Assembly (NCBI GenBank): GCA_029265715.1
Contig: JAJUGZ010000006.1
Span: 1-64,000 of the forward strand
Origin: Bacteroidota bacterium
Lineage (GTDB): Bacteria > Bacteroidota > Bacteroidia > Bacteroidales > Prolixibacteraceae
DNA: 64,000 nucleotides
Direction of reading: 5' to 3'
The notes under the pieces: generated by a model
What the model was told of the DNA's origin: nothing
The model's database searches: none
The model's input: only the letters and a program-made list of their open reading frames with translations
Translations under genes and position numbers: made by a program
Part shown: positions 2,245 to 26,097 of the stretch, piece by piece
Layout: every line of letters begins with the position of its first letter
Numbering within the stretch: the stretch's first letter is position 1

Positions 2245-2515
2245 TTTTTTCCCGATGGCGCCGTTTATGCGCGATGGTTGACTGTTTGATGCACTCCCCA
2301 AATTTCAACCGAATTGTTAATGCCTTGTTATTTTGTTGAACAGTAAATGTCGTGATTGTATATTAATTGCCTCATTTTTAGTGTATTGTTTTGTTGCGCG
2401 AGATTCGTATTTGTTAATAATCCTTACTATTTAGAAGCCGATTAAATTTTCTATCTCGTTGTTTTACTTGCGAATCCTTAATACTTTTATCTCCAAACAT
2501 AAATCGCTAAATCCT

Positions 2516-3730
2516 ATGAAATGTTATTCCTGTTTCCTGATCTGTTTTTTCTTTCTTGTTTCGGTGCTGGCAGCACAAAATCCGACCCAATGGAGAGGGG
2601 ATCATTCGGATGGAAAGTATACCGTTGATAAGCTTCTAAATAAGTGGCCTGCCGAAGGCCCGCAAATTCTTTGGCATACCGAAGGGCTGGGGCAAGGTTT
2701 TTCTTCGCCCGCATTCGCCAATTCAAAAATCTATGTTACAGGAATGCTGAATGGCCAGGCCGTCTTATTTGTACTCGATATGAATGGAAAAGAGTTAAAG
2801 CGGTTTTCATATGGAGCCGAGTTTGCCGCCAGTTATCCGGGAACCCGTTCTACTCCGACAATTGTGGACAACCTGGCGTATTTATATACCGGTAACGGAC
2901 AAATTATTTGCCTTGACCTGAATTCAGGAGCCACCAAATGGACGAAAAATGTATTTTCTGATTTCGACGGACAAAATATTACCTGGGGAGTTACCGAATC
3001 GCTGGTTGTTAATGGCGACAAGCTGTATTGTACCCCGGGCGGGAAGAAGAACAATGTAATCGCGCTGAACCGGCTAACCGGAAATCTGATCTGGACCAGT
3101 CCGGGAGTAGGCGAACTGTCAGCTTATTGTACGCCTCAGATTATTAAACTGCCGGCACGGACGCTCGTGGTAACAATGACAGCCAGCCATGTTGTTGGTA
3201 TCGACGATGCGAATGGGAATGTGCTTTGGAGCTGGGAACACCCCAACCAGTGGTCGGTTCACCCGAATACCCCGATTTATAACGATGGGGCTCTGGTGTG
3301 CTTCAGTGGCTACGGGCAGGGGGCCGAAAAGCTTATCCTTAGTGCCGATGGAAGTTCAATTACAAAAGCTTGGGCTGTTAAAAGTTTCGACAGCCGGATG
3401 GGCGGTGCCGTTTTGGTGAATGGATGTTTATATGGCTCGGGCGATGCCGATCGTAGCTGGCAGTGTATTGACTGGAAAACCGGAGAACAAAAATACTCGT
3501 CAACTGCTGTAGGGAAAGGAGTCGTCATTGCCGCAAACAACAAGCTGATTGGCTATTCTGAACGGGGCGAGTTGTTCCTGGCCGATGCAACGCCTATCGG
3601 ATTAACAATCGCCAGTAAAACCAAAGTTGAACTTGGGTCAGAACAGCACTGGGCTCATCCGGTAATTTTCAACAACGTATTGTATGTGCGGCACGGAAAT
3701 ACGTTGATTGCATATAAAATCTCAGAATAA
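2516..3730 (+). CDS. PQQ-like (BamB-like) beta-propeller, secreted
   Basis: Start trimmed to ATG at 2516 with signal peptide MKCYSCFLICFFFLVSVLAAQ; WRGDHSDGKY and repeated blade motifs (LNSGATKWTKNV, LTGNLIWTSPGV, ANGNVLWSWEH). Confidence 0.85.
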   Translation: MKCYSCFLICFFFLVSVLAAQNPTQWRGDHSDGKYTVDKLLNKWPAEGPQILWHTEGLGQGFSSPAFANSKIYVTGMLNGQAVLFVLDMNGKELKRFSYGAEFAASYPGTRSTPTIVDNLAYLYTGNGQIICLDLNSGATKWTKNVFSDFDGQNITWGVTESLVVNGDKLYCTPGGKKNNVIALNRLTGNLIWTSPGVGELSAYCTPQIIKLPARTLVVTMTASHVVGIDDANGNVLWSWEHPNQWSVHPNTPIYNDGALVCFSGYGQGAEKLILSADGSSITKAWAVKSFDSRMGGAVLVNGCLYGSGDADRSWQCIDWKTGEQKYSSTAVGKGVVIAANNKLIGYSERGELFLADATPIGLTIASKTKVELGSEQHWAHPVIFNNVLYVRHGNTLIAYKISE

Positions 3731-3769
3731 TAAAACAACCAGGCAAATAACAATCATAAAGTTCGCCAA

Positions 3770-5011
3770 ATGAAGAAAACAATTAACCTTGCATTGTTAC
3801 TCCTTATTGTTTTGTCCATTTATTCTCAGCCTGTTGCTCATTGGCGAGGGCCGAATGGCGATGGAAAATTTCCGGAAACAGGTTTGTTGAAACAATGGCC
3901 AGCAAATGGACCTGAGCTCCTTTTCTCGGTCGAAGGTATTGGAAAAGGTTATTCCTCTGTCGTTGCCACCGACAAATATATGTATGTAACCGGGATGATT
4001 GACACGCTGGATTATCTCACGTGCATTACTCCTGAAGGTCAGATAAAATGGCAGGTTCCTTATGGGCGGTCATGGGCGCAATCTTTCCCCGACACCAGAG
4101 GTTCAGCCACCGTGCAGGACGACCGTGTTTATGTTATCAGCGGGACAGGCCAGCTGGTTTGTTTGAATGCGGAGACAGGCGTTATCAATTGGAGCGTGAA
4201 TGTCGATAAAGATTATGAATCGGAATGGCACATCTGGGGCGTTTCCGAGTCTCCGTTAATTGTTGATGACAAAGTAATTTGTTCGCCCGGAGGTAAAAAA
4301 ACATCGATTGTCGCATTTGATAAGATGACCGGAAAGTTAATCTGGAAGAGTGAGAGTGTTGGCGGGCCTCGTTGTTATCTTTCACCCATTTTGTACGAGT
4401 ACGGGAACATTCGATATATTTTGGCTGCAACAGGTACAAATTTAATTGCACTCGTCCCTGAAACCGGGAAAGTCGCTTGGACATATCGCTACCACGATCC
4501 GCAGAAATGGGACCAGCCAGGCCTGATCTGGGCAAACACACCTGTTTATAAAGGACGGGATATCTTTATTACCATGGGTTACGATTACTATTCGGTTATG
4601 CTTGAAATGAACCCGGAAGGAACCGCTGTAACTGAAAAATACCGCGAAATGGATCTCGATAACCACCACCATGGGGTGATCCAGTTAGGCGATTACGTGT
4701 ATGGGTCGAACTGGATCAATAACAACAAAGGCGAATGGGTTTGCATGGATTGGAATACGGGGGAAATCAAGTATAAAACAACCTGGTTTACAAAGGGATC
4801 GATGGTTTTTGCTGATGGCCTTTTGTATGTATATGAAGAAAAATCAGGAAATGTTGGTCTGGTAAAACCCAATTCGGACGGATTTGATGTTGTTAGTTCA
4901 TTTAAGGTCGATAAGGGAGAAGGGCCACATTGGTCGCATCCGTTTATTGCAAATGGAAAACTCTATTTGCGCCATGGGAATGTGATGATGGTTTATCAGA
5001 TCAAAGCCTGA
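3770..5011 (+). CDS. PQQ-like (BamB-like) beta-propeller, secreted, tandem paralog
   Basis: Signal peptide; WRGPNGDGKFPETGLLKQWPANGPELLF; blade motifs ETGVINWSV, MTGKLIWKSESVGG; C-term KLYLRHGNVMMVYQIKA. Confidence 0.87.
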   Translation: MKKTINLALLLLIVLSIYSQPVAHWRGPNGDGKFPETGLLKQWPANGPELLFSVEGIGKGYSSVVATDKYMYVTGMIDTLDYLTCITPEGQIKWQVPYGRSWAQSFPDTRGSATVQDDRVYVISGTGQLVCLNAETGVINWSVNVDKDYESEWHIWGVSESPLIVDDKVICSPGGKKTSIVAFDKMTGKLIWKSESVGGPRCYLSPILYEYGNIRYILAATGTNLIALVPETGKVAWTYRYHDPQKWDQPGLIWANTPVYKGRDIFITMGYDYYSVMLEMNPEGTAVTEKYREMDLDNHHHGVIQLGDYVYGSNWINNNKGEWVCMDWNTGEIKYKTTWFTKGSMVFADGLLYVYEEKSGNVGLVKPNSDGFDVVSSFKVDKGEGPHWSHPFIANGKLYLRHGNVMMVYQIKA

Positions 5012-6252
5012 TGAATCGATTAGTATATATATTATTTATTGCACTATTCCCATTTGGGCTGACAGCTCAGGATGTTGTCGAATGGCGCGGACCTGGCCGA
5101 AGCGGAGTGTATGCCGACCAGCATTTACTCGAAGCTTGGCCCGATAGCGGACCGGAATGCTTACTGGAGATTACCGGCATCGGAGCAGGCTATTCGTCGG
5201 CGGTGGTGTACAACAACCTGATTTATGTGACCGGGAAAAAAGACACACTGGATGTGGTCTCTGCTTATTCGTTTGACGGGGAAAAGAAATGGAAAACTAA
5301 TTACGGGCGGGCCTGGGCAAAAACTTATCCCGAAACCCGGAGCACGCCGACCATCGAAAATAACCGCATTTTTCTGGCCAGCGGAATGGGAGAGGTCTCG
5401 TGTGTCGATGCGATATCCGGAGAGTTAATATGGAGCGTTGATGCTCATGATAAATACAACGGTGAATTTCTGAACTGGGGAATTGCTGAGTCGGTAGCAA
5501 TTACCGACAAGGCGGTTTTATATGTTACCGGAGGAGAAGAAACTTCGGTTGTGGCATTGGATAAACAAACCGGTCGGCTTATCTGGAAAACAAAAAGCGT
5601 GGGCGGTCCCCGGGCTTATGCTTCAACTCTGGTGTTCGAGCATAACGGGTTGAAAATGGCCTTGGCGCAAACAGCCAACGATTTGATCGCGATTGATGTG
5701 ACGAACGGTGATATTATCTGGGTGTATAATTTGTCGCAGTACCACACCGGGCGGACCGGACGCGGGGCCAACACCAATACACCGCTTTATTGCAAGGGCG
5801 AGATTTTTGTTACCAGCGGGTACGATCATCCGGGACTTATGCTGAAACTTTCAGATGACGGGCGATCGGTATCGCTAAAATGGAAAAATGACCTGTTTGA
5901 TAATCACATTGGCGGTGTGGTTGCGGTTAACGGGAAAATTTATGGATCGAACTGGACTGGCAATGCTGGCGGGAACTGGATGTGTGTTGACTGGGACACC
6001 GGGGAAACCAATTATGAGGCTCATTGGATGAATAAGGGGTCGATTATTGCGGCAGACAATAGGCTTTACTGTTATGAGGAAAAAAATGGTAATCTGGCTC
6101 TGGTAAAGCCTAATCCTGAAAAGTTTGATATCGTTAGCACATTTAAGGTTGAAAAAGGTGAGGGGCCTCACTGGGCCCATCCGTCGATATTTGATGGAAA
6201 GCTGTACATCAGGCACGGAGAGAATTTGATGGTATATAAAATTTCAGAATAG
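5011..6252 (+). CDS. PQQ-like (BamB-like) beta-propeller, secreted, tandem paralog
   Basis: ATG at 5011 overlaps the previous stop (TGATG); signal peptide MNRLVYILFIALFPFGLTAQ; EWRGPGRSGVYADQHLLEAWPDSGPECLL; very similar to the preceding gene. Confidence 0.87.
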   Translation: MNRLVYILFIALFPFGLTAQDVVEWRGPGRSGVYADQHLLEAWPDSGPECLLEITGIGAGYSSAVVYNNLIYVTGKKDTLDVVSAYSFDGEKKWKTNYGRAWAKTYPETRSTPTIENNRIFLASGMGEVSCVDAISGELIWSVDAHDKYNGEFLNWGIAESVAITDKAVLYVTGGEETSVVALDKQTGRLIWKTKSVGGPRAYASTLVFEHNGLKMALAQTANDLIAIDVTNGDIIWVYNLSQYHTGRTGRGANTNTPLYCKGEIFVTSGYDHPGLMLKLSDDGRSVSLKWKNDLFDNHIGGVVAVNGKIYGSNWTGNAGGNWMCVDWDTGETNYEAHWMNKGSIIAADNRLYCYEEKNGNLALVKPNPEKFDIVSTFKVEKGEGPHWAHPSIFDGKLYIRHGENLMVYKISE

Positions 6253-6254
6253 AC

Positions 6255-7679
6255 TTGAAAAAGATTACGACAATAGGAACTTGGATGACGGTTGGATTCG
6301 GCGCTGCTGTTTTGTTATGGTGGTTGTTTAAAGACCCCACGGCTAAATTCACCGAGAGTGAGCCAGGCGCCGACGAACGTGATGGAGGGATGTCGTCGCT
6401 GGTCGATGAGATCGTCAAAATTGGTGAAAAATTCCAGCTTTTTGGAACTTCAGAAACATCTTTTAAAGACACCTGGACGCGTTTTCGTGGAGCCGATTAT
6501 GACAATGTTGTAAAGAATTCGGTCCCGTTAAAAGACAGCTGGACCGGCGACGAGCCCAAAATCCTATGGTCGGTTCCGCTGGGCGAAGGACATGCCGGAC
6601 CTGCTGTTTATCAGGGGAAAGTATATGTCATGGATTATGACGAAGAGGCCCGGGAAGACGCTCTTCGCTGCTTTTCGCTGGAAGACGGAAAAGAACTTTG
6701 GCGACGTTCGTATGGCTTGAGCATCAAACGAAACCATGGCATGTCGCGTACTGTTCCGGCTGTTACTGCCGACTATGTATTGACCATCGGCCCGCGTTGC
6801 CAGGTTATGTGCGTGAAACGCGAAACAGGCGATTTTTTGTGGGGGATCGACCTGGTGAAAGAGTACCAGACCGAAGTTCCGCTCTGGTTTACCGGACAAT
6901 GCCCGATGATTGACAATAACAAAGCCATCCTGGCGCCGGGTGGCTCGGCCCTGATGATTGCTGTCGATTGTGCTACCGGCAAGGTTTTGTGGGAAACACC
7001 CAATCCGGATAAGCTGAAAATGTCGCACTCATCCATTATGCCGTGGACACTGAATGGCAAAAGAATGTATGTCTACAGTGCTAACGGCGGTGTCGTTGGG
7101 GTTTCGGCCGAAGGATCCGACGAAGGGAAAATTCTATGGTCGTCAACTGCCTGGAACCATGCAGTCGTTGCGCCGTCAGCTGTTTGCTTTCCCGATGGGA
7201 AGCTTTTCCTGACGGCCGGATATGGGGCCGGAAGTATGATGTTGAAAGTGACGCCTTCGGGAGGAAGCTATTCGGTTGAAGTACTGAAGGAATACAGCCC
7301 CAAAGATGGTTTGGCCTGCGAACAGCAAACCCCGGTCGTCTGGAACGGGATGATGTACGGAATAGAACCTAAAGATGCCGGAGCATTGCGGAACCAGCTG
7401 GTTTGCGTCAATCCGGATGATGTGACTAAAGTAATCTGGTCTTCCGGAAAAACATCGAGGTTTGGTCTCGGTCCATATTTAATTGCCGATAATAAAATGT
7501 TCATACTGAACGACGATGGCACGCTGACTATAGTCAGGCCTGACCCCGAAAAATACATCCAACTGGCTCAGAAGAAACTTTTCGACGGGCAGGATGCCTG
7601 GGCCCCGATGGCCATTGCCGACGGCCGGTTGTTGCTCCGAGATTCAAAAACAATGTATTGTGTCGATGTAAAGCGCTGA
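6255..7679 (+). CDS. Membrane-anchored PQQ-like beta-propeller
   Basis: TTG start 3 nt after previous stop; N-terminal TM TTIGTWMTVGFGAAVLLWWLF; propeller motifs WTRFRGADYDN, EDGKELWRRSYG, ATGKVLWETPN. Confidence 0.82.
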   Translation: MKKITTIGTWMTVGFGAAVLLWWLFKDPTAKFTESEPGADERDGGMSSLVDEIVKIGEKFQLFGTSETSFKDTWTRFRGADYDNVVKNSVPLKDSWTGDEPKILWSVPLGEGHAGPAVYQGKVYVMDYDEEAREDALRCFSLEDGKELWRRSYGLSIKRNHGMSRTVPAVTADYVLTIGPRCQVMCVKRETGDFLWGIDLVKEYQTEVPLWFTGQCPMIDNNKAILAPGGSALMIAVDCATGKVLWETPNPDKLKMSHSSIMPWTLNGKRMYVYSANGGVVGVSAEGSDEGKILWSSTAWNHAVVAPSAVCFPDGKLFLTAGYGAGSMMLKVTPSGGSYSVEVLKEYSPKDGLACEQQTPVVWNGMMYGIEPKDAGALRNQLVCVNPDDVTKVIWSSGKTSRFGLGPYLIADNKMFILNDDGTLTIVRPDPEKYIQLAQKKLFDGQDAWAPMAIADGRLLLRDSKTMYCVDVKR

Positions 7680-8648: not shown

Positions 8649-8852
8649 ATGAAAACGAACAGACGAGATTTTTTCCGATTGGCTGGACAGTTGGCCATGT
8701 TGTCCGGATTGGCAGGCGGGTCGGCCTATCTGCTTTCTCGCGGACAAGTCGTAGCTTCAGGATGTGAAGCCGGCAGCATGTGCCGTGATTGCAAAAAGCT
8801 TTCGAAATGCAACCTGGATCAGGCTACAAAATACAGAAACAATGAGCGATAA
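8649..8852 (+). CDS. Tiny Tat-signal Cys-rich protein (67 aa)
   Basis: Tat motif NRRDFFR followed by a hydrophobic stretch; short mature region CEAGSMCRDCKKLSKC (C-x5-C-x2-C-x5-C); overlaps next gene start by 11 nt. Confidence 0.72.
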   Translation: MKTNRRDFFRLAGQLAMLSGLAGGSAYLLSRGQVVASGCEAGSMCRDCKKLSKCNLDQATKYRNNER

Positions 8853-9462
8853 GACTGAACGTAAAGGAATGGAACGTCGCCGGTTTATCAAACGGGGTAT
8901 GCAGGCTACATTGGCTGTATCGCTGGGCGGTGTTGCTGTAGCATCATTCATGAAATCGTATGCCGGAGAAATGGTTTGGCAAATCGATCCGTTTAAATGC
9001 GTCCAATGTGGGCGCTGTGCCGACGAGTGCGTGATGATGCCGTCGGCTGTGAAATGTGTGCATGCGTATGCCCTCTGCGGATACTGCGATTTATGTGGCG
9101 GCTACCTGAAACCCAATGCTAACGAACGCAGTACGGCTGCCGAGAACCAGCTTTGCCCAACCGCCGCAATTAAGCGGAAATTCATCGAGGATCCGTATTT
9201 CGAATATGAAATCGATGAAGAGCTGTGTATTGGATGTGCCAAGTGCGTAGCCGGATGCACTTCCTTTGGAAATGGTTCGCTGCACCTGCAGATTCGGCAC
9301 GACCGCTGCAAAAACTGTAACGAGTGTGCCATTGCCCGGGTTTGTCCGGCTGACGCGATTACGCGTGTTCCGGCCAATCAGCCATACTTGATAAAGGGCG
9401 ATTTTACCGCTGCCGGAGATAAAGCCAAAAAAGATACAAGCCGAATGTCTGACAACAACTGA
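8842..9462 (+). CDS. Tat-exported multi-cluster 4Fe-4S ferredoxin (NapG/HybA-like)
   Basis: Start trimmed to ATG 8842; Tat motif RRRFIKRG; motifs CVQCGRCADEC, CGYCDLC, CIGCAKCVAGC, CKNCNECAIARVCP. Confidence 0.88.
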   Translation: MSDKTERKGMERRRFIKRGMQATLAVSLGGVAVASFMKSYAGEMVWQIDPFKCVQCGRCADECVMMPSAVKCVHAYALCGYCDLCGGYLKPNANERSTAAENQLCPTAAIKRKFIEDPYFEYEIDEELCIGCAKCVAGCTSFGNGSLHLQIRHDRCKNCNECAIARVCPADAITRVPANQPYLIKGDFTAAGDKAKKDTSRMSDNN

Positions 9463-9627: not shown

Positions 9628-10893
9628 ATGAAAAACAAATTTTTAAAATATAGTTTACTGATTGCCGGGTGGTTTGGATCGATTCATGGTCTTTTTGCAC
9701 AGGCACAGCAGCGCTTCCCGAAGCCGGAATTTGAATCGGGCTATTCACAACCACAAACAACAACACCTTTCCCGAGAGCTTTGTGGCTCGAGTACTTCGA
9801 TGTGTTTGTATTACTGGCTGTTTTGTCGCTGGTTAGCTGGTTTGCACTGAAAAAACGGTCAAGAAAAGGCGTATTCTGGTCTTCTGTTTTTTCTGTGCTT
9901 TATTTTGGGTTCTATCGTGAAGGCTGTATTTGTTCGGTGGGCTCCATTCAAAATGTAACACTGGCCTTGTTCGACCCCACTTATGCCATCCCGTTATCGG
10001 CCTTGTTGTTTTTCCTGATACCGCTGGTTTTTACATTGTTCTTTGGGCGCACATTTTGTGCCGGAGCGTGCCCGCTTGGCGCCATTCAGGATTTAGTAGC
10101 TTTACGCCCGATTGAATTGTCGCGCTGGGTTCAAAAAGTTTTCGGATTGGTTCCTTATTTATACCTCGGACTGGCTGTCTTGTATTCGGCTACAAAATCA
10201 GATTTTATTATTTGTCGGTACGACCCATTTGTTGGTTTTTTCCGGCTCGATGCGCAGTTTATCATGTTGGTGCTGGGCGTACTGTTTTTAGCAGCCGGAA
10301 TATTTGTTGCAAGGCCATACTGCCGCTTTTTTTGTCCCTATGGGGTGCTGTTGGGATGGATGTCGCGTTTTTCAGCGAAGCATCTGACTATTACGCCGAA
10401 GGAGTGTGTTCAATGTAAATTATGTGCCCATTCGTGCCCGTTTGGGGCGATTGATGAGCCTGTTGCAGAACCGGCCCATCGGCGCAAAAGCGTGAAACAC
10501 CTGATGCTTGTGGTCGCTTTACTTCCGGTATGGGCCATACTTGGCGGCTGGGCCGGATCGATGGTCCACGTTCCGCTTTCCCGGTTGAACCCGACCGTTT
10601 CGCTGGCCGAGTTAATTGTTAAACATCCGGAGGTAAAAGAAGACCAAAATAATATTGATGTCCGTACTTTTATGAGTTCCGGAAAAACGACCGATCAGTT
10701 GGTTGCAGAAGCTTCGGAAATTCAGAGAAGATTTTACCGGGGGAGTTGGCTGGTGGGTGGTTTTCTTGGCTTAGCTATTGGTTTTAGCCTGACTAATCTG
10801 TCAATATTCCGGAAACGCGACGATTTTGAGCCCAATAAAGCCAATTGTTTAAGTTGTGCCCGGTGTCTGGATTTCTGTCCGGTAAAAAAATGA
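9628..10893 (+). CDS. NapH/NosR-like membrane 4Fe-4S protein
   Basis: Several TM helices; GCICSVGSIQN, FCAGACPLGAIQDLV, YCRFFCPYGVLLG, CVQCKLCAHSCPFGAID, CLSCARCLDFCP. Start trimmed to ATG 9628. Confidence 0.88.
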   Translation: MKNKFLKYSLLIAGWFGSIHGLFAQAQQRFPKPEFESGYSQPQTTTPFPRALWLEYFDVFVLLAVLSLVSWFALKKRSRKGVFWSSVFSVLYFGFYREGCICSVGSIQNVTLALFDPTYAIPLSALLFFLIPLVFTLFFGRTFCAGACPLGAIQDLVALRPIELSRWVQKVFGLVPYLYLGLAVLYSATKSDFIICRYDPFVGFFRLDAQFIMLVLGVLFLAAGIFVARPYCRFFCPYGVLLGWMSRFSAKHLTITPKECVQCKLCAHSCPFGAIDEPVAEPAHRRKSVKHLMLVVALLPVWAILGGWAGSMVHVPLSRLNPTVSLAELIVKHPEVKEDQNNIDVRTFMSSGKTTDQLVAEASEIQRRFYRGSWLVGGFLGLAIGFSLTNLSIFRKRDDFEPNKANCLSCARCLDFCPVKK

Positions 10894-10954: not shown

Positions 10955-12790
10955 ATGAATGACAAAATAAAACTTGCCAGGCGCATAGCTTGGGCCGCAG
11001 GGGCGTTTTCCCTGATTGTTGCCGTTTTGCTGATTGCTAACTTTTTGCAAACAAAGCTCAATGATCCCATTGATAACAAAACGATTCCAGAACTGGTTAA
11101 ACGACTGAGTGAAAATCCGTCGGATGAAGCATTGAAACAAGAAATTCGTGCTTTCGACCTGATGGCCCGGAAAGCCTATTTTACCAGTCAATGGCAAATC
11201 AGGACCGGAGGGTATTTGCTTTTACTCGGTGTGATAATAACCTTATTGGCTGTTCGTTACGAACGCTCTGCTAAATCGAAACTTGATGCGGTTGATATTC
11301 TGAAAGATGAGTCGGCCTTAGATAAAGTTTTGGCGCAAAAATGGATTGCAGCCTTGGGCGTTTTCATCTTTTTGGCAGCCATTGTTTCGGGTATCTTATC
11401 CTATAATGCTATAGACAGGTACCTGGTAGTTGAGAATGCCCCAGCTGTTTCAGAAGCAGGAACTACTGCATCTTCTGGCGAAAATGCTTTGGACAATATG
11501 GATCAACCCTCCTCTGGTCAATTGGCTGCCGGCGACACCGTAACGGCGAATGTAGTTACTGAGACTCCGAGCAGTTCTTCGTTGGCGGAAGCTGTTGCTG
11601 AAAATGCGGCCACAAAAACCTTTGCAACGATGGCAGAAATGAAAGCGAACTACCCCTTTTTCCGCGGGCCTGAGGGCATTGGCATTGCTTATCAGAAAAA
11701 CATACCGACCGACTGGAATGGGACTTCCGGTGAAAATATTTTATGGAAAGTTAAAGTTCCCAAACCGGGATACAGTTCTCCCATTATCTGGGGCAACAAA
11801 CTGTTTGTAACCGGGGCCGATGCTTCAGCGCGAGTGGTGTACTGTTACGACAAAAACACGGGCAAACTGATATGGGAAGCCAGTGCCGACCAGATTGAAG
11901 GTTCTCCTCCCTCGAAAATGCCAAAAGTAACAGCGGATACCGGCTTGGCTGCGCCCACCATGGCCACCGATGGCTATTCTGTATTTGCCATTTTTGCAAC
12001 CGGCGATGTGCTTGCCCTCGATATGAACGGCAAACGCACCTGGGCAAAAAATCTGGGCGTGCCGGATAACCATTATGGGCACGCCTCTTCACTCGTTGTT
12101 TATAAAGATAAGCTCCTGATTCAATACGACACCAACAAAGGCGGTAAAGTCATGGCTTTGTCAACCGCTTCCGGGGATAAAATTTGGGAAACCGTGCGGG
12201 GCTCGAAAATTTCGTGGGCATCGCCGGCGCTTGTGAATACAGGAACCAGGACCGAGCTCGTTTTGGCCACCAATCCAACAGTTGCGTCATACGATCCGGA
12301 GACTGGGAAAGAACTTTGGAGCATGAATTGCCTGAGCGGAGAAGTGGGGCCTTCGGTTGCTTATAGCAACGGAATGTTTTACGCAGCCAACGAATATGCC
12401 AAACTGGCGGCTATCAAGCCCGGAAGCGCTCCGTCGATTGTCTGGTCTGAAGATGAATATCTGCCTGAAGTAGCCAGTCCGCTGGCAGTAAACAGTCTGG
12501 TGTTCGTGGCAACTACGTATGGCGTGTTGGCCTGCTATGATGCACAAACCGGTGAAAAATACTGGGAACAGGAGTGGGGCGATCCGTTTTATGCATCGCC
12601 GGTTTATGCCGATGGCAACGTGTACCTGGCTGATCAGAGTGGAAAAATGCACATTGTAAAAGCATCGAAAACGTTCGAGTTGGTGGCCGAACCAACGATT
12701 GGCGAAAAGGTTGTTTGTTCGCCGGCATTTGGCGACGGACGCTTGTATTTGCGCGGAACAAATCAGTTGTATTGCATAGGAACCAAATAA
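10955..12790 (+). CDS. Membrane-anchored PQQ-like beta-propeller with N-terminal two/three-TM domain
   Basis: N-term TM helices (AWAAGAFSLIVAVLLIANFL, GGYLLLLGVIITLLAV, WIAALGVFIFLAAIVSGIL), low-complexity linker, propeller motifs NTGKLIWEASADQ, ASGDKIWETV, ETGKELWSMN, QTGEKYWEQEW. Confidence 0.86.
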   Translation: MNDKIKLARRIAWAAGAFSLIVAVLLIANFLQTKLNDPIDNKTIPELVKRLSENPSDEALKQEIRAFDLMARKAYFTSQWQIRTGGYLLLLGVIITLLAVRYERSAKSKLDAVDILKDESALDKVLAQKWIAALGVFIFLAAIVSGILSYNAIDRYLVVENAPAVSEAGTTASSGENALDNMDQPSSGQLAAGDTVTANVVTETPSSSSLAEAVAENAATKTFATMAEMKANYPFFRGPEGIGIAYQKNIPTDWNGTSGENILWKVKVPKPGYSSPIIWGNKLFVTGADASARVVYCYDKNTGKLIWEASADQIEGSPPSKMPKVTADTGLAAPTMATDGYSVFAIFATGDVLALDMNGKRTWAKNLGVPDNHYGHASSLVVYKDKLLIQYDTNKGGKVMALSTASGDKIWETVRGSKISWASPALVNTGTRTELVLATNPTVASYDPETGKELWSMNCLSGEVGPSVAYSNGMFYAANEYAKLAAIKPGSAPSIVWSEDEYLPEVASPLAVNSLVFVATTYGVLACYDAQTGEKYWEQEWGDPFYASPVYADGNVYLADQSGKMHIVKASKTFELVAEPTIGEKVVCSPAFGDGRLYLRGTNQLYCIGTK

Positions 12791-12801: not shown

Positions 12802-15162
12802 ATGGCTATTGATGCAAAGGTTATTGAGGAGGCAGTTGACCGGATTGTCGCTGAAAAAGGCACTGAAGAACGGGCAGTTATTCCGATTCTTCAGGCAATT
12901 CAGCATGAATTTAATTTTTTGCCCGAAGCAGCTTTGCTGCGGGTATGCCAGTATACAAAAATTACCCCTGAGCAAATTGTGGGGGTGGCAACATTCTACT
13001 CACAGTTCCGGTTACATCCGGTTGGCGAACACATGATTAAAGTTTGTGTCGGGACAGCCTGCCACGTTAAAGGAGCTGTGCAGGTTTACGATGCATTCCG
13101 GCGTCACTTCAATCTGAACGGAGATCAGGATACCGATGCATCCGGTAAATATACAATCGAGAAAGTATCCTGTTTGGGATGCTGCACGCTGGCCCCGGTT
13201 GTTCAGATAAATGGAATTACTTACGGTCATGTGGCCTCCGATAAGGTCGGTCAGGTAATCGATGATTACGAACGCCAATTGGTTTTCTCCGGCGATAAAA
13301 AAAGTAAATTTCGTAATGCCGATGGAACAGAGATCCAGGGCGAAATCCGTATCGGACTGGGGTCGTGTTGCGTGGCCAGCGGATCGGAAGATGTAAAAAA
13401 AGCCATCGAAGAATCGGTCGTTGATACCGGTATCCGGGTTAGTTTGAAAAATGTGGGCTGCGTGGGAATGTGCCATCAAGTTCCATTGGTCGAAGTGATC
13501 CCTCAAAATGAAAAACCAACACTCTACGCACATGTTAAACCCGAAGAGGTTCAGCACATTATCGAGACGCACTTTAAACCGGCCGGAACATTCGACCGGC
13601 TCCGAAATAAAGTGTTCCGGTTCTTCGAAAATATGCAGACCGACACTGTTTGGGATGGTGTAAAACGCTATGAAATTGATCACCGGGAAAAACAGGTAGC
13701 TGATTTTCTCGACCGTCAGGTCCCGATAGCCACCGAATATCGCGGGATTATTAATCCGCTCGACATTGAAGAATATAAAGCCAATGAAGGTTTTGCTGCG
13801 CTCCGGAAATGTTTGTTTGAGCTAACGCCGGAACAAATCATTGAAACGATTAAAGCCAGCGGCTTGCGGGGCCGGGGTGGAGCCGGTTTTTCAACCGGGC
13901 AGAAATGGCAATTTGTCCGGAATAATGAGTCAGATATAAAGTACCTGATTTGTAATGGCGACGAAGGCGACCCGGGTGCTTTTATGGACCGCATGTTACT
14001 CGAATCGTATCCTTACCGCGTTATGGAAGGAATGGTCATTGCCGCCAAAGCTGTCGGGGCAACACATGGCTTCTTTTACATTCGCGCTGAATATCCATTG
14101 GCTGTTCGGCGTATTCGTCAGGCCCTGATTTATGCCCGGGAACGGAATCTGCTGGGAGAGAATATCATGGGCTCCGGATTTTCGTTTGATCTGGAAATTT
14201 ATGAAGGCGCTGGTGCTTTTGTTTGTGGCGAAGAAACGGCCTTGATGGCTTCGATTGAAGGGAACCGCGGCTTTCCTCGCATCCGTCCGCCTTTCCCTGC
14301 CGAGAGCGGTTTGTGGGGAAAACCTACGCTGATTAACAATACCGAAACATTTGCACAAGTTTCCTACATCATCCGGCATGGGGCAGAAGCCTTTAACTCG
14401 ATCGGGACATCTACCAGCAAGGGGACCAAAGTGTTTGCACTGGCCGGAAAGATTAACCGGGGCGGCTTGATTGAAGTGCCGATGGGTATCACGCTCCGAC
14501 AGATTGTGGAAGAAATTGGCGGAGGAGTCCAGAACGGTAAAAAATTTAAAGCCGTGCAGATTGGGGGCCCGTCCGGAGGCTGTATTCCTGCTGCATTATA
14601 TGATACTCCTATTGATTACGAATCCCTTATAAACGCTGGGGCCATGATGGGGTCTGGCGGGTTGGTGGTACTCGACGAAACCGATTGCATGGTCGATATG
14701 GCCCGTTACTTTCTGTCGTTTACCCAGCATGAATCGTGCGGAAAATGCACGTTTTGCAGGGTTGGAACCAAACGCATGCTTGATATCTTAGATAAAATTA
14801 CTTCAGGAAAAGGAACAGAAAAAGATTTGAAAGAACTGGAATATCTGGCTCATTGGACCGAAAAAGGTAGTTTGTGTAACCTCGGGAAGACAGCCCCCAA
14901 TCCGGTTTTATCAACATTGCGCTATTTTCGCGACGAGTACGAAGCTCACATTCAGGGTCGTTGTCCTTCGGGGAAATGCCAGCAATTAATAACCTACCGG
15001 ATTAATGACAAGTGCATTGGATGTACGAAATGTGCCCAGAAATGTCCCACGGATGCTATTCGCTACAAACCACACCAGCTGCATGTTATCGAACCGGACA
15101 AATGTATCAAATGCGACGCATGCCGTCAGGCCTGTCCGGTTGATGCCGTTGAGATAGTTTGA
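12802..15162 (+). CDS. NuoE-NuoF fusion diaphorase (HydB/HndC-like) with C-terminal 2[4Fe-4S] ferredoxin
   Basis: Start trimmed to ATG 12802. NuoE 2Fe-2S CVGTACHVKG...VSCLGCC; second 2Fe-2S-like domain GSCCVASG...GCVGMC; NuoF GLRGRGGAGFSTGQKW, GAGAFVCGEETAL, SCGKCTFCRVGTKRML; C-term CIGCTKCAQKCP, CIKCDACRQACP. Confidence 0.95.
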   Translation: MAIDAKVIEEAVDRIVAEKGTEERAVIPILQAIQHEFNFLPEAALLRVCQYTKITPEQIVGVATFYSQFRLHPVGEHMIKVCVGTACHVKGAVQVYDAFRRHFNLNGDQDTDASGKYTIEKVSCLGCCTLAPVVQINGITYGHVASDKVGQVIDDYERQLVFSGDKKSKFRNADGTEIQGEIRIGLGSCCVASGSEDVKKAIEESVVDTGIRVSLKNVGCVGMCHQVPLVEVIPQNEKPTLYAHVKPEEVQHIIETHFKPAGTFDRLRNKVFRFFENMQTDTVWDGVKRYEIDHREKQVADFLDRQVPIATEYRGIINPLDIEEYKANEGFAALRKCLFELTPEQIIETIKASGLRGRGGAGFSTGQKWQFVRNNESDIKYLICNGDEGDPGAFMDRMLLESYPYRVMEGMVIAAKAVGATHGFFYIRAEYPLAVRRIRQALIYARERNLLGENIMGSGFSFDLEIYEGAGAFVCGEETALMASIEGNRGFPRIRPPFPAESGLWGKPTLINNTETFAQVSYIIRHGAEAFNSIGTSTSKGTKVFALAGKINRGGLIEVPMGITLRQIVEEIGGGVQNGKKFKAVQIGGPSGGCIPAALYDTPIDYESLINAGAMMGSGGLVVLDETDCMVDMARYFLSFTQHESCGKCTFCRVGTKRMLDILDKITSGKGTEKDLKELEYLAHWTEKGSLCNLGKTAPNPVLSTLRYFRDEYEAHIQGRCPSGKCQQLITYRINDKCIGCTKCAQKCPTDAIRYKPHQLHVIEPDKCIKCDACRQACPVDAVEIV

Positions 15163-15343: not shown

Positions 15344-16906
15344 ATGATTACACTGACCATAGATAACCGCACCATTGATGTTCAACCGGGAACAATGGTT
15401 TGGGAAGCGGCCCGCCAACTTGGCATTGAAATACCAACGCTTTGTTATCTGGATGGAGCCGACCATTTTACTTCGTGCATGGTTTGCTTAGTCAAAGACA
15501 ACCGAAACGGGAAATTACTTCCGTCGTGCTCAACCCCGGCCATGCAGGGAATGAATCTGACAACCAACGATGCCGAAGTTCATGAGTCGCGAAGAGCCTC
15601 ACTTGAACTTTTGTTGAGCGAACATGTTGGCGATTGTGAAGCGCCCTGCCAATTGGTCTGTCCGGCACACATGAATATTCCCCTTATGAACCGGTTAATA
15701 GCCAAAGGTGATTTTGCCCGGGCGCTGGAAGTTGTAAAACGAGACATTGCTTTGCCTTCCATACTCGGGAGAATCTGTCCGGCCCCCTGTGAGGCGGGTT
15801 GCCGTCGCAAGCCGATTGACGAGGCTGTTTCAATTTGTCTCCTGAAACGGATAACCGGAGATGAAGATCGCGCTCAGAACAAAAGATACATGCCGAAGCT
15901 CAAATCGTTGTCGGGCAAACGGGTAGCAATTATTGGTGCCGGACCGGCTGGTTTGTCAGCTGCTTACTATTTGCAGCAAAACGGTCATCAAGCGGTTATC
16001 TTTGACCAGAATGAAAGGGCAGGGGGAGATCTGATGAAAATTGATGCCGACCTATTGTCCCCGGATGTTATTGATCAGGAAGTGGCGGCTATTACAGCAA
16101 CCGGCGTTCAGATTCATTTGAACGAGACTATTGATAATCATCGTTTTGAACAGTTTAGATGCGAATATGACGCGGTTGTTGTTGCCATTGGAACAATTAC
16201 TGAAGGGAACCCGATTTTCGGGTTAAAAACAAACAAGCAGGGACTTGTTGTTGATAAATCGACTTATCTTACGTCAGAACCCCATGTATTTGCTATTGGA
16301 AACGCGTTGCGCGCTTCGAAGCTGGCTGTCCGTTCGGTTGGGCAGGGCAAAGAAGTTGCAGAAATTATTGATTCCAGCTTCCATACCGGGGAGGTCGTTC
16401 CACGCCCGGAGCGGTTCAATTCAAAGTTTGGCAAACTGACAGAGCCTGAGATTCAGGAGTATTTGAAAGAATCGGTTTCTGCCCAGAGGATAAAAGCCGG
16501 GACTGAAGGTTTTACGCGAGAGCAGGCGATGGCCGAGGCCGCACGTTGTCTGCATTGTGATTGCCGGGCCCCCGAATCGTGCAAACTTCGTTTGTTATCC
16601 GATCAATATGGAGCCGATCAGCGTCGTTTTCAGTACGATGAACGTAAACCTGCCCGGAAAACAATAAGTCCGGATGGCTTGGTGTACGAAAGCGGAAAGT
16701 GTATAAAATGTGGAATTTGTGTGCGTTTGGCCCGCCAGCATCAGGAAGAATTTGGGTTCACGTTTATTGGCCGTGGATTTGATGTGCAGATTGGTGTACC
16801 GTTTAATGAAACACTACAGGCTGCGTTTCGAAAAACAGCTCGTCTGGTTGCAAAAAATTGTCCAACCGGAGCTTTGGCAATGAGCGAGTTGGAAGAAAAA
16901 ATCTAA
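15344..16906 (+). CDS. NuoG-like 2Fe-2S / GltD-like FAD oxidoreductase hybrid
   Basis: N-term 2Fe-2S IPTLCYLDGADHFTSCMVC...LLPSCSTP; GltD-like CPAHMNIP...GRICPAPCEAGCRR; FAD motif VAIIGAGPAGLSAAYYLQ; C-term CIKCGIC...NCPTGAL. Confidence 0.9.
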   Translation: MITLTIDNRTIDVQPGTMVWEAARQLGIEIPTLCYLDGADHFTSCMVCLVKDNRNGKLLPSCSTPAMQGMNLTTNDAEVHESRRASLELLLSEHVGDCEAPCQLVCPAHMNIPLMNRLIAKGDFARALEVVKRDIALPSILGRICPAPCEAGCRRKPIDEAVSICLLKRITGDEDRAQNKRYMPKLKSLSGKRVAIIGAGPAGLSAAYYLQQNGHQAVIFDQNERAGGDLMKIDADLLSPDVIDQEVAAITATGVQIHLNETIDNHRFEQFRCEYDAVVVAIGTITEGNPIFGLKTNKQGLVVDKSTYLTSEPHVFAIGNALRASKLAVRSVGQGKEVAEIIDSSFHTGEVVPRPERFNSKFGKLTEPEIQEYLKESVSAQRIKAGTEGFTREQAMAEAARCLHCDCRAPESCKLRLLSDQYGADQRRFQYDERKPARKTISPDGLVYESGKCIKCGICVRLARQHQEEFGFTFIGRGFDVQIGVPFNETLQAAFRKTARLVAKNCPTGALAMSELEEKI

Positions 16907-17040: not shown

Positions 17041-17374
17041 CTATTTCTTCGCCATCCGCTCATAATGACAACACCCGGGCAAAGCATCATAGGTCTTTGT
17101 ATCAGCTTTGTGTAATGGCGTGTCGTGACCAGCTTTGGCAATTGCTGCTTCGATTTTATCCAGCGAAGTTTTGGCCGTATCAAAATCCACCGTCATTACT
17201 TTGCTCTTTTGGTCCCAGTCGGCCTTCGAAACTCCGTCGACTGCCAGGGCTGCTTTTCCGATGCGTTCTGCAATTGCCGGCAACGTTAAACTTTTCCGAT
17301 TTGTTTTCGGCATACAAATTCTGAACGCCCGGCAGCAAAACAGCTGCAAACAGGGCAACTACAAACTTTTTCAT
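17041..17374 (-). pseudogene. Secreted HMA-domain protein, frameshifted at the metal-binding CxxC motif
   Basis: Frame 1 MKKFVVALFAAVLLPGVQNLYAENKSEKFNVAGNC, then frame 2 ERIGKAALAVDGVSKADWDQKSKVMTVDFDTAKTSLDKIEAAIAKAGHDTPLHKADTKTYDALPGCCHYERMAKK; paralogous to CusB C-terminus. Confidence 0.75.
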
Positions 17375-17460
17375 TGTTCTCTTTTTTAACGTGTTAAACT
17401 AATTCATCGTGCTACTCATCGGATGATTCAAAGTCATTCGATATCCGATGACTCTTAACT

Positions 17461-19026
17461 CTATTTTTGCTTTTTTCGGTATAAACAGCACGCCGGAAGC
17501 TGGTTGTAAGCGTTGTCCGGTGCTTTGTATTTTTCGGTATCGTGACCTGCTGCGGCAACGGTTTTCTGAATATTATCCAGATTGGTTTTTGTGGGATCGA
17601 ACTGTACGTGCAGCATTTGCCGGTCGGCATCCCAATCTGCCGAAGTAACCCCGGAAACTGATTTTACGGCTGTTTCAATCCGCTCTTTGCACATATCGCA
17701 GTTTCCTGAAACATGCACCATCTGGAGGGCCTGATCAGTACCACTCATCCGATGACTTGAAGTCACCGGCTGGTTTATCATGCTTGGTTTTCCGGCCAAC
17801 TGGGCGGCAGCATCAACGGCAAAAGCGCCATTGGTCACAATTTCTTCGCCTTCCTGAAGCCCGTTCAGCACCACGTAAGCGTTGCTCAGCGCAGGGCCCA
17901 GTTCAATCTCGCGCATCCGGAATTCAGGTTCATCGGTTCCCGAAACTTTCACGTAAACGACCGAGCGGGGACCTGTCCACAAAACTGCCGATTGCGGGAT
18001 GACCAATTCCTCACGATATTCGGGCAACGCCGATGCAATTGTTCCGCGTACAAACATTTCAGGTTTAAGCCTGCCTCTTGGATTATCTGCTTCTACGCGC
18101 ACTTTTGCAACCCGTGTCGCCGGGTCAATAACCGGGTCAATAAAAGTTACTTTCCCTGAGAAAGCCTGTCCGGGAATCGATTCAACCGAAAAGGAAGCAG
18201 CATCGCCTTCTTTGATCCACGGAAGGTCGCTTTCGTAGGCATCCAGCAAAACCCACACGCGCGATAAATCGGCAACCTCAAACAAGGCAGCTCCCTGTTG
18301 CACGTAATCTCCCTGGTTGACCCGCTTGTTCAGAACCACCCCCGAAACATTTGCCCTGACATCGAATACCGGTTGCAGTTTCCCGCTTTTCTCAATGCCT
18401 GAAATCTGTTCGTCAGTCAGCTTCCATTGATGCAGTTTCTCGCGGGCTGCTTCGACTAAGTCCGGCTGGGGCGGGTTCAACAGCCTGGCCTGCAACAATT
18501 CTTCCTGAGCCGTAACCAAAGACGGTGAATAAATGCGGGCAATTACCCGGCCTTTTGCAACCAGCTCTCCGGTGAAGCTAACCAGCAGTTCTTCGATTCG
18601 TCCGGCGATATGGGCCGCCTGTGTTTTGAGTCGACGTTCGTCAACCTGAACTTTACCAGTCAGGCTGATTGATTTTTCGATATTTTGCCGGCCAACAAGG
18701 CTGGTCTGCACTTCGGCCAGCCTCATGCCATCTTCGGTCATATGAACGGCATCCGGGTTTGGTCCGGCTGTTACCGGTTGAAGCGGAATCAGATCCATCC
18801 CGCAAATGGGACACTGTCCCGGTTTGTCCATCCTGATTTGCGGGTGCATCGAGCAGGTCCAAATCTGATGTTCCGATTCGTCGTGTTGATGTTCCTGAAT
18901 GATCAATCCTTCCGGATTTTTGCTGTTTCCGGCGTTGTGAAAGAGGAACCATCCCAAAACCAATCCGCCTGCAATGAGTAACCCGGATTTGATCCACGTC
19001 TTTTGAAAACTATTTTTGTGTTTCAT
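17461..19026 (-). CDS. cusB: CusB-type RND efflux periplasmic adaptor with N-terminal heavy-metal-binding and C-terminal HMA domain
   Basis: WTCSMHPQIRMDKPGQCPICGMDLIP; membrane-fusion-protein core; C-terminal VHVSGNCDMCKERIETAVKSVSGV...LPACCLYRKKQK. Confidence 0.93.
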   Translation of the reverse strand: MKHKNSFQKTWIKSGLLIAGGLVLGWFLFHNAGNSKNPEGLIIQEHQHDESEHQIWTCSMHPQIRMDKPGQCPICGMDLIPLQPVTAGPNPDAVHMTEDGMRLAEVQTSLVGRQNIEKSISLTGKVQVDERRLKTQAAHIAGRIEELLVSFTGELVAKGRVIARIYSPSLVTAQEELLQARLLNPPQPDLVEAAREKLHQWKLTDEQISGIEKSGKLQPVFDVRANVSGVVLNKRVNQGDYVQQGAALFEVADLSRVWVLLDAYESDLPWIKEGDAASFSVESIPGQAFSGKVTFIDPVIDPATRVAKVRVEADNPRGRLKPEMFVRGTIASALPEYREELVIPQSAVLWTGPRSVVYVKVSGTDEPEFRMREIELGPALSNAYVVLNGLQEGEEIVTNGAFAVDAAAQLAGKPSMINQPVTSSHRMSGTDQALQMVHVSGNCDMCKERIETAVKSVSGVTSADWDADRQMLHVQFDPTKTNLDNIQKTVAAAGHDTEKYKAPDNAYNQLPACCLYRKKQK

Positions 19027-19053
19027 TTTTCTGATTTTATCTGTTGTAAAAAA

Positions 19054-20511
19054 TTAATCCATCCGGTTTTTCACCCCGGCCAGATATTGCAACTGGGCTT
19101 CGGCCACATTCAGGTCGGTCAGCGCCTGCAGTTTGTTCAGCCTGTACCCGAGCAGTTGTTCCTGCATGCGCAGAACTTCATCCATCGTGGTCTCTGACGC
19201 TGAAAAAGCGGTTGTCAGTAACCTTACACTGATTTGGGCCAACGCTGCCTGTTTTTGGTACAATTCTAACCGGCGGTTGGCATCATGGTATTGTTCAACC
19301 GTTTCCTGAAAAGCAACCTGCAATTCATTCCGTGTGTTTTGAAAAGCTTTTTCCGACGCTTCAATCCTGAATTCGGCTTCACGTTCCATCGTTTTGTATT
19401 TCCTGCTGAAAACCGGAATTGTGAACGAAACCATCGGCATTGCCATATCCTTGCCGTTCATCATCGATGTATTTCCGGCGCGTTTTTCAATCAGCATATA
19501 ATTGGCCCCGATGCCCAGCATCGGTTTGCCCATTTTCGAAGCCATCGCTTGCTGGGCCTGTCCGGCTGCTTTTTCGGCCAGGGTCATTTGCAGCATCGGG
19601 TTATTTTGCAGGCTGTCGCTGAGGATTTTGAGATCGGTTAACGGCCCGCCTGCGATCAGGCTGTCAGGGACAAAAACCGGGGATTCCGGCGAACGGTTCA
19701 GCAACCTGTTGAAACGGGTCGTTTCGGTGATCAGCTGATCTTTTTTAGCGGCCACACGGTTTTCCAGTTCGGCGATTTCCATCTGGACCCGCAGCACATC
19801 GACCATTCCGGAGCCCGGTTGCTTCATCGGGGAATTTCCGGCATTCATGGCCATCCTTCCGGAAAGAGGTGTAGAACTGCCATTCATTCCACCCATACCG
19901 CCTCCATTCGTGGACGAGGGTTCTGTTGGTGCGGCAGGCTGCGACATATTTGCCCCGGATGAATTAATTGCCTGCACGTTGGTGTAAGCCGATAATGCCA
20001 GTTTTTCCAAGGTCCGGAGCAATTCCATATTTTCATTCAGAATATCAATTTCCTTTTTCTTCTGATATATCCGGTACCACGAAGTTTTTACCTGTTTATA
20101 GGCCATATTTCGGGCGTCGCGGGCTTCTTCAAATTTCATGACAGCCATTTGAGAAGCCTCGTCTTTGGCGGCTTTCAGGGTTCCGAACCATGGAAACATC
20201 TGCATCAGGCGAATGCTGCTTACCTGGTTTCCTCCCGTCAGTTCCATTGGTTTCAGGTAAAAGCCAAGTTCGGCAGAAGGGTCGGGCAGGGCGCCTGCCT
20301 GCGGAACCTTTTCGAGGGCTTCCGAATATTCCAGGTATTTAGCCTGTAGCCCCGGATTGTGTTTGTCGGCCAACTCCAGATAAATGGAAAGCGAATCCTG
20401 TGCTTTCACTGAAAAAGATGCGATCAGCAACAGTAGGGAAAAGACAATTCGACAGAAAGGCAATTCACCTTGAGCTTTGATGCTTGATACGTTATACCTG
20501 GCACTATTCAT
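19054..20511 (-). CDS. TolC-family outer membrane efflux protein (CusC-like)
   Basis: Position between cusB and cusA; alpha-helical OEP motifs, Met-rich segment GGGMGGMNGSS. Confidence 0.9.
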   Translation of the reverse strand: MNSARYNVSSIKAQGELPFCRIVFSLLLLIASFSVKAQDSLSIYLELADKHNPGLQAKYLEYSEALEKVPQAGALPDPSAELGFYLKPMELTGGNQVSSIRLMQMFPWFGTLKAAKDEASQMAVMKFEEARDARNMAYKQVKTSWYRIYQKKKEIDILNENMELLRTLEKLALSAYTNVQAINSSGANMSQPAAPTEPSSTNGGGMGGMNGSSTPLSGRMAMNAGNSPMKQPGSGMVDVLRVQMEIAELENRVAAKKDQLITETTRFNRLLNRSPESPVFVPDSLIAGGPLTDLKILSDSLQNNPMLQMTLAEKAAGQAQQAMASKMGKPMLGIGANYMLIEKRAGNTSMMNGKDMAMPMVSFTIPVFSRKYKTMEREAEFRIEASEKAFQNTRNELQVAFQETVEQYHDANRRLELYQKQAALAQISVRLLTTAFSASETTMDEVLRMQEQLLGYRLNKLQALTDLNVAEAQLQYLAGVKNRMD

Positions 20512-25702: not shown

Positions 25703-26097
25703 GGGGCTGACTGGTTTTGACAGCGGGTAGAAGAGGTATGTAAGCATGTCGGGCCTTGATCGCACAGCCCGTTAATCTCGGCGTTCAAACAATAACTGGC
25801 GAAACAAATTACGCTCTTGCCGCTTAATCGAAGATTAGTAGATAAGCTATTCCGGCATCAGATGCTGGAACGAGACGTCACTCCGAAGGTCCGGCCTTCT
25901 TCCATTCGGGTTTAGTGGCGCAGCAATTGAAGGATAGCTTGCGGTTTGCTTCGGGCCAATAGCGAAACAACAGAAGCTAAGGTACCGGTCGGTGGCCCTG
26001 ATCCAGCCGGTACACGAAAACCAAGTCTGGGGATAAGCATGTAGAAAGCGTATTGCTTCCTCGTTTGGACGCGGGTTCGACTCCCGCCAGCTCCACA
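25703..26097 (+). ncRNA. ssrA: tmRNA (transfer-messenger RNA)
   Basis: 5' GGGGCTGACTGGTTTTGACAGCGGG; tag ORF ending GGCGAAACAAATTACGCTCTTGCCGCTTAA (GETNYALAA*); 3' T-arm/acceptor GGACGCGGGTTCGACTCCCGCCAGCTCCA. Confidence 0.96.

Follow-up and report, generated by a model that had tools for sequence, protein, structure and literature searches.

The intact ORF at 15344-16906 (+) encodes a 520-aa protein (P0001) that has lost the whole NAD(P)H-binding domain of its relatives and has kept the ligands of its Fe-S clusters. We believe that it is probably the third (A) subunit of a Bfu-type (HydBC/StnAB-like) NADH/ferredoxin enzyme, in which it would act as an Fe-S wire from BfuCB to a NapH-like partner, NADP(H) having been abandoned. 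The ORF lies in a stretch of 64,000 nucleotides of a Prolixibacteraceae contig, referred to here as the window. By its sequence features the protein is a member of the Bfu family, and it is predicted to act like a Bfu/Stn A subunit. No description of the operon or of an NADPH-less BfuA was found in the open-access literature.

Pfam assigned to P0001 the domains Fer2_4 (residues 1-75), Fer4_20 (98-178) and one Pyr_redox/FAD fold (187-335); the match to Fer4_Nqo3 at the C-terminus was weak and below the Pfam cut-off, with invariant cluster ligands in that region. The first-pass annotation had described a GltD-like flavoprotein without its NAD(P)H-binding domain and without a second GGGNxA-type motif, and both absences were borne out. 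In the Pfam and phmmer results, the first half of the FAD domain (GAGPAGL, residues 193-284) runs straight into the second half (305-348), the junction reads ...YDAVVVAIGTITEGNPIFGLKTN|KQGLVVDKSTYLTSEPHVFAIGN... as quoted in that annotation, and P0001 has no second GxGxxA/G motif. Of the relatives with solved structures, the best are StnC of Sporomusa ovata (8oh5_C), the A chain of Caldicellulosiruptor Nfn-ABC (9bov_A) and NfnA of T. sibiricus (9n5u_A). The alignment to StnC and NfnA is collinear up to subject residue 287-290 and picks up again at 421-425, and the block absent from P0001, about 130-140 residues, is the NADPH Rossmann domain, which would lie precisely between the two halves of the FAD domain. 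At this place, five full-length StnC homologues of the same bacterial order have 187 residues and P0001 has 26. The AlphaFold2 model (mean pLDDT 79) contains a single Rossmann domain and no second dinucleotide-binding domain. Its top folds in Foldseek were StnC, Nfn-ABC and NfnABC, with GltD and NfnL far behind, and the alignments to these top folds span about 680-710 columns for 520 residues. The GltD-like NADP(H)-binding domain is absent in all 64 deletion-form homologues.

Table 1. Features of the BfuA gene and its operon in the window
Feature	Position	Strand	Evidence or remark
Three secreted PQQ-like beta-propeller genes (2459-3730, 3770-5011, about 5014-6252)	2459..6252	+	Pfam scan covered the first of the three
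Membrane-anchored PQQ-like beta-propeller (pqqD)	6255..7679	+	cluster 9, 37 loci
NHL-repeat protein, one N-terminal TM helix	7682..8647	+	
Tat-exported polyferredoxin, 17 conserved Cys (about four [4Fe-4S])	8842..9462	+	Tat motif 38/40
NapH-like membrane Fe-S protein: CxC, two CxxxCP, one single Cys, 2 [4Fe-4S] motifs, at least 6 TM	9628..10893	+	
Membrane protein: 3 N-terminal hydrophobic helices and PQQ-like beta-propeller	10955..12790	+	present in 48 loci
Fused BfuC-BfuB (NuoE + HydB-like) core	12802..15162	+	Pfam and sequence matches
BfuA/StnC-type Fe-S subunit without NAD(P)H domain (P0001, 520 aa)	15344..16906	+	
NuoG-like [2Fe-2S] domain, residues 1-92; C34, C45, C48, C62	15344..15619	+	Fer2_4 3.9e-16; ligands 64/64
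His-ligated cluster and GltD-type N-terminal Fe-S domain, residues 93-178; H94, C98, C102, C106, C145, C149, C153	15620..15877	+	Fer4_20 6.4e-18; ligands 64/64
Clade signature C165-x2-K168	15836..15847	+	C165 64/64 in deletion forms
FAD domain half 1, residues 190-284, GAGPAGL	15911..16195	+	Pfam, AlphaFold2 model; fastest-evolving domain
Junction where NAD(P)H Rossmann domain (about 130-140 aa) is missing	16196..16255	+	alignments
FAD domain half 2, residues 305-348; usual GD motif is GN	16256..16387	+	alignments
C-terminal Fe-S region, residues 398-514; C402, C405, C407, C413 and C453, C456, C459, C506	16535..16885	+	

The label GltD-like holds in part. P0001 shares the N-terminal Fer4_20 domain and the FAD-domain fold with GltD and NfnB (NfnL), but those proteins carry a second Rossmann (NADPH) domain, and they match far less well than StnC and NfnA. 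Membership in GltD was rejected on these two grounds. Because an N-terminal [2Fe-2S] domain and a C-terminal ferredoxin-like domain are present, both of which the first-pass annotation had missed, P0001 is a StnC/BfuA protein and is better named a BfuA/StnC-type subunit than GltD. As it has no NADPH domain, the defining feature of a Stn transhydrogenase, it does not count as one. The suggestion that it is no free NADPH oxidoreductase is supported.

The scan of genome contigs gave 55 loci with a deletion-form BfuA, nearly all collinear over residues 1-520. The hosts are Prolixibacteraceae (including isolates of Sunxiuqinia, Mariniphaga, Maribellus and Gaoshiqia), other Bacteroidota MAGs and the phylum KSB1, where 17 of 82 genomes have this form; the junction is common to 64 homologues from these three groups, cultured strains included. 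In an even sample of the class, the source genome was the sole carrier among 149 genomes. Full-length StnC proteins (1230-1237 aa) are also present in the same order, and one genome (G564; L103, L104) contains the NADPH-less system together with a full-length StnC that has separate NuoE and HydB genes. The spread of the form over so many assemblies and isolates rules out a frameshift or assembly artefact. The idea of a decaying or misassembled gene without function is refuted in practice, and we give it almost no weight: the FAD half is eroding and a few copies have in-frame stops or breaks, but the gene is intact in the 64 homologues, all cluster ligands are invariant and pN/pS is 0.04-0.29. 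The interrupted copies are L025:320-1870, L056:5357-6858 and G525:C536:2049-3581, the last of which is extra to an intact one.

Ligand conservation was followed in an alignment of 64 deletion forms, 3 shorter forms and 5 full-length StnC proteins. All ligands of the [2Fe-2S] domain and of residues 93-178, together with C402, C405, C407 and C413, are invariant throughout, and C453, C456, C459 and C506 are invariant save in end-truncated rows. The FAD site has changed. The Asp of the GD motif is present in 5/5 full-length proteins and replaced in 64/64 deletion forms (N in 48, H in 6, S in 6, G in 3, A in 1), and the Arg equivalent to R239, a residue on which StnC depends, is gone, the GIPxYRLP motif being absent in the alignment. 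The pN/pS ratio was 0.21-0.29 in FAD half 1, 0.04-0.09 in Fer4_20 and 0.06-0.16 in the Fe-S part at the C-terminus, and the FAD half changes at 3-5 times the rate of the Fe-S domain beside it. When overall identity is matched, identity in FAD half 1 is 55% among deletion forms versus 70% among full-length proteins, in which the FAD half is not the weak part. These patterns indicate that the conserved element is the Fe-S wire and not the flavin, and a working FAD is doubtful.

It could be argued that FAD is still bound and functional, as the redox centre that connects the Fe-S chain with another Fe-S protein (the polyferredoxin or the NapH-like protein) docked at the former site of the NAD(P)H domain. 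The GxGxxG, the GG, the second-half Gly and the helix of the FAD fold are invariant in 64/64 deletion forms, and the Asn that replaces Asp in 48 of them could still form a hydrogen bond. K168, the equivalent of StnC K170, is kept in 64/64 deletion forms, and C165, three residues before it and new in this clade, is invariant there, D in the full-length proteins and R in two relatives without a FAD domain; this pair by the FAD-proximal cluster is kept only where the FAD domain is present. Against a functional flavin stand the loss of the GD Asp in favour of variable residues, the loss of the Arg and the relaxed evolution of the FAD half, and the same operon occurs in one relative without the second FAD strand and in two without the FAD domain. 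We regard a functional FAD as rather unlikely. Because the glycines and K168/C165 are invariant and pN/pS is far below 1, the fold still does something in the 64 members; by these sequence measures, it is under selection, but relaxed. The first-pass proposal that the FAD exchanges electrons only with Fe-S partners is kept for the partners and questioned for the flavin.

The three shorter forms extend this trend. In G554 and G577, BfuA has 323-328 aa and lacks the entire FAD domain with every Fe-S ligand kept, and in G576 (L105) an intact 483-aa BfuA is without residues 282-324, a stretch to which the VFAIGN strand of its FAD site belongs. Since the 520-, 483- and 323-328-aa forms share the same operon, that operon tolerates the successive loss of the NADPH domain, a FAD strand and the FAD domain. 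The BfuB tree, which carries a long-branch warning, has the FAD-less pair as its first branch (81/90) and L105 within the main clade, so that further losses probably happened at least twice independently. The FAD-less form is adjoined by squalene-hopene-cyclase-like genes and a DUF116-polyprenyl synthetase fusion (L141:16191-20000, L142:53-4286).

The BfuA gene lies directly 3' of the nuoEF gene in most loci reaching that far. The best match of this fused NuoE-HydB protein is NfnB of the T. sibiricus Nfn-Bfu (3.8e-221), and it also matches StnB. The BfuB domains PF01512, PF10589 and PF14697/Fer4 are above the cut-off, SLBB is slightly under it (24 bits, cut-off 27), and the NuoE-type [2Fe-2S] domain of BfuC (PF01257, 1.8e-50) is fused N-terminally. 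The core contains the FMN/NADH site, a C-terminal 2x[4Fe-4S] ferredoxin domain and the B2 His715; H715, C720, C725, C628 and eight C-terminal Cys (B2 and B3/B4 ligands) are conserved, and all BfuB/BfuC Cys and the B2-type His are kept even in the most divergent members. Thus the core carries every bifurcation ligand, and bifurcation or confurcation activity is predicted. That P0001 is a subunit of the NuoEF protein, as first suggested, is very likely, given the adjacency of the genes and the pairing of exactly these two subunit kinds in StnABC and NfnABC.

The gene order propellers, NHL protein, polyferredoxin, NapH-like protein, membrane propeller, BfuCB, BfuA is kept across Bacteroidota and most KSB1 loci. 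In the window the BfuA gene is the last of the operon; in most relatives another propeller, a glycosyltransferase and an FtsX-type ABC transporter follow downstream. The NapH-like protein has 15 conserved Cys and matches Fer4_5 (5e-19), and its TIGR02163 NapH score is 51.8 for a cut-off of 213. There was no Rossmann or FAD/NAD family among the neighbours scanned, and the idea that an operon neighbour provides the NAD(P)H domain in trans was rejected. The seven cluster families that were checked for cytochrome c partners all lacked a CxxCH motif. A GDSL-type esterase gene (GxDLY and Lipase_GDSL_3) lies between BfuCB and BfuA in nine loci, for example L023:8429-9517 and L054:8822-9940. The operon structure is not absolute, since in five relatives (L008, L010, L011, L015 and L020) BfuA sits behind other genes and apart from BfuCB. 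The L008, L015 and L020 genomes have BfuCB and the NapH-like gene at other places, which means that their BfuA gene has been relocated. By their motifs, the genes ahead of BfuA in these five loci resemble hemE, hemN and hemY/hemG.

The NapH-like protein accompanies the deletion form closely. Among 61 relatives of the source genome, the deletion-form BfuA was found in 36 and the NapH-like protein in 37; both occur in 35, BfuA only in 1, NapH only in 2 and neither in 23, a count that shared ancestry inflates. The BfuA-only exception is a fragmented MAG of 1070 contigs, and the two NapH-only genomes are G554 and G577, which have the same operon with the FAD-less BfuA. Within the stretches examined, no NapH neighbour lies beside the full-length StnC genes of the same order. 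At E<=1e-30 the NapH-like protein is specific to the NADPH-less BfuA system, because the source genome was the only one of 393 genomes of the phylum to match. A complex of BfuA with the NapH-like protein is suggested by the operon and by this co-occurrence.

An alternative is that the enzyme is soluble and of the NADH:ferredoxin type, with a different soluble carrier as its third substrate, and that the NapH-like protein and polyferredoxin form a separate system within the operon. The third substrates of Bfu enzymes are many, 17 BfuB clades had no assigned function (PMC9304861), and the genes are unlinked in some genomes. Yet the co-occurrence is near-perfect, the order is conserved in two phyla, the cluster contains no further conserved redox enzyme, and genomes in which the genes are unlinked, such as that of L052, still have the NapH-like protein. 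We consider such a soluble enzyme improbable.

Earlier work on StnABC assigns bifurcation to the FMN core of StnAB and not to the FAD, makes StnC the wire for NADPH-derived electrons through C7-C3, and reports one state in which StnC K170 coordinates the FAD-proximal cluster C7 (PMC10482914). Like StnABC (PDB 8oh5) and Caldicellulosiruptor Nfn-ABC (PDB 9bov), the present system combines NuoE, a HydB-like core and a NuoG+GltD-like third subunit, with the same Fe-S ligand pattern along the wire and the K170 equivalent. Unlike them, it has no NAD(P)H domain and no FdhF-like C-terminal half (520 vs about 1170 aa), its NuoE and HydB are fused, it has the extra Cys165 and lacks the GD Asp, and its operon is NapH-like. 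The NfnABC of T. sibiricus (Nfn-Bfu; PDB 9n5u) is closest in the core (PMC9304861), and in NfnA, too, the C-terminal ferredoxin domain has retained a single cluster, but NfnA has an intact NADP(H) domain and NADPH-dependent activity. In the scheme of Schut et al. 2022 (PMC9304861), the A subunit of Bfu enzymes merely feeds in electrons from the third substrate, adapting any such substrate to the core, and membrane-linked members (Mbh-Bfu, Nuo-Bfu) are already predicted. Our system resembles Bfu Types 1-4 in the BfuBC core with B2-type His/Cys ligands and in the A subunit as third-substrate adaptor; it differs from them, as described in the sections of that paper covered here, in the link to NapH and polyferredoxin and in a BfuA without the NADPH domain. 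NapH-like proteins are regarded as modular transmembrane electron carriers, and extracytosolic systems with a Fer4_5-motif membrane protein in this proposed role have been reported (Meheust et al. 2021, PMC8238504). Those systems are flavinylated (FMN-binding domain) and some are quinol-fed, but no FMN-binding domain was found here and the predicted donor is the Bfu complex.

The route that we consider most probable has P0001 as an Fe-S wire. BfuA would descend from a StnC-like NADPH-oxidising subunit that lost its NAD(P)H domain, and the wire, made up of [2Fe-2S], His-ligated [4Fe-4S], two GltD-type clusters and one C-terminal [4Fe-4S], would run from the FMN core of BfuC-BfuB to a third partner that is new to such enzymes. 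For this role the NapH-like membrane protein with its Fe-S clusters, encoded in the same operon, is the likeliest candidate, and from it electrons would go on to the Tat-exported polyferredoxin. Because NADPH has been removed and the NapH-like carrier is constantly alongside, a wire from BfuCB to the membrane is the simplest reading. The FAD fold would be at most a one-electron relay or docking surface that is being lost. Electrons are expected to flow from NADH and reduced ferredoxin (confurcation) to the membrane and periplasm, and this would be downhill if the NapH-linked acceptor had a quinone-like or higher potential. Characterised NapH proteins are thought to draw electrons from quinol, so a direct transfer from BfuA would face competition.

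Taken further, the operon might represent a new type of Bfu complex, in which NADH and reduced ferredoxin are confurcated and their electrons cross the membrane by way of an NADPH-less, possibly flavin-free BfuA wire and the NapH-like protein, directly to the periplasmic polyferredoxin without NADP or quinone, a low-potential exit that can coexist with or replace Rnf. We offer this full scheme tentatively, with less than an even chance of being right. RnfC was undetected in 14/36 carriers versus 5/25 non-carriers, and the source genome (99.94%-complete) is among the carriers without detectable RnfC. A strict replacement of Rnf was rejected, because carriers with Rnf also exist, and the link, which falls mostly within one genus, is only weak. 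If the scheme is right, the Bfu bifurcating enzymes gain a membrane- and periplasm-directed branch, in which a subunit that once oxidised NADPH was pared down step by step to a mere Fe-S wire with the core intact. The stripping series would put to a natural test the claim that bifurcation does not occur at the FAD of StnC, and the widespread operon, with its secreted propellers, Tat polyferredoxin and FtsX-type ABC transporter, would be a candidate low-potential electron route to the periplasm in Bacteroidota and KSB1.

Beyond the operon, the ORF list of the window places putative Cus-type heavy-metal efflux genes (RND pump, membrane-fusion protein and outer-membrane factor) at 17041-24370 (-). 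Among them is a small HMA-like ORF (17041-17358) that looks similar to the C-terminal end of the fusion protein encoded at 17461-19026. A tmRNA gene with the tag GETNYALAA lies at 25703-26096 (+).
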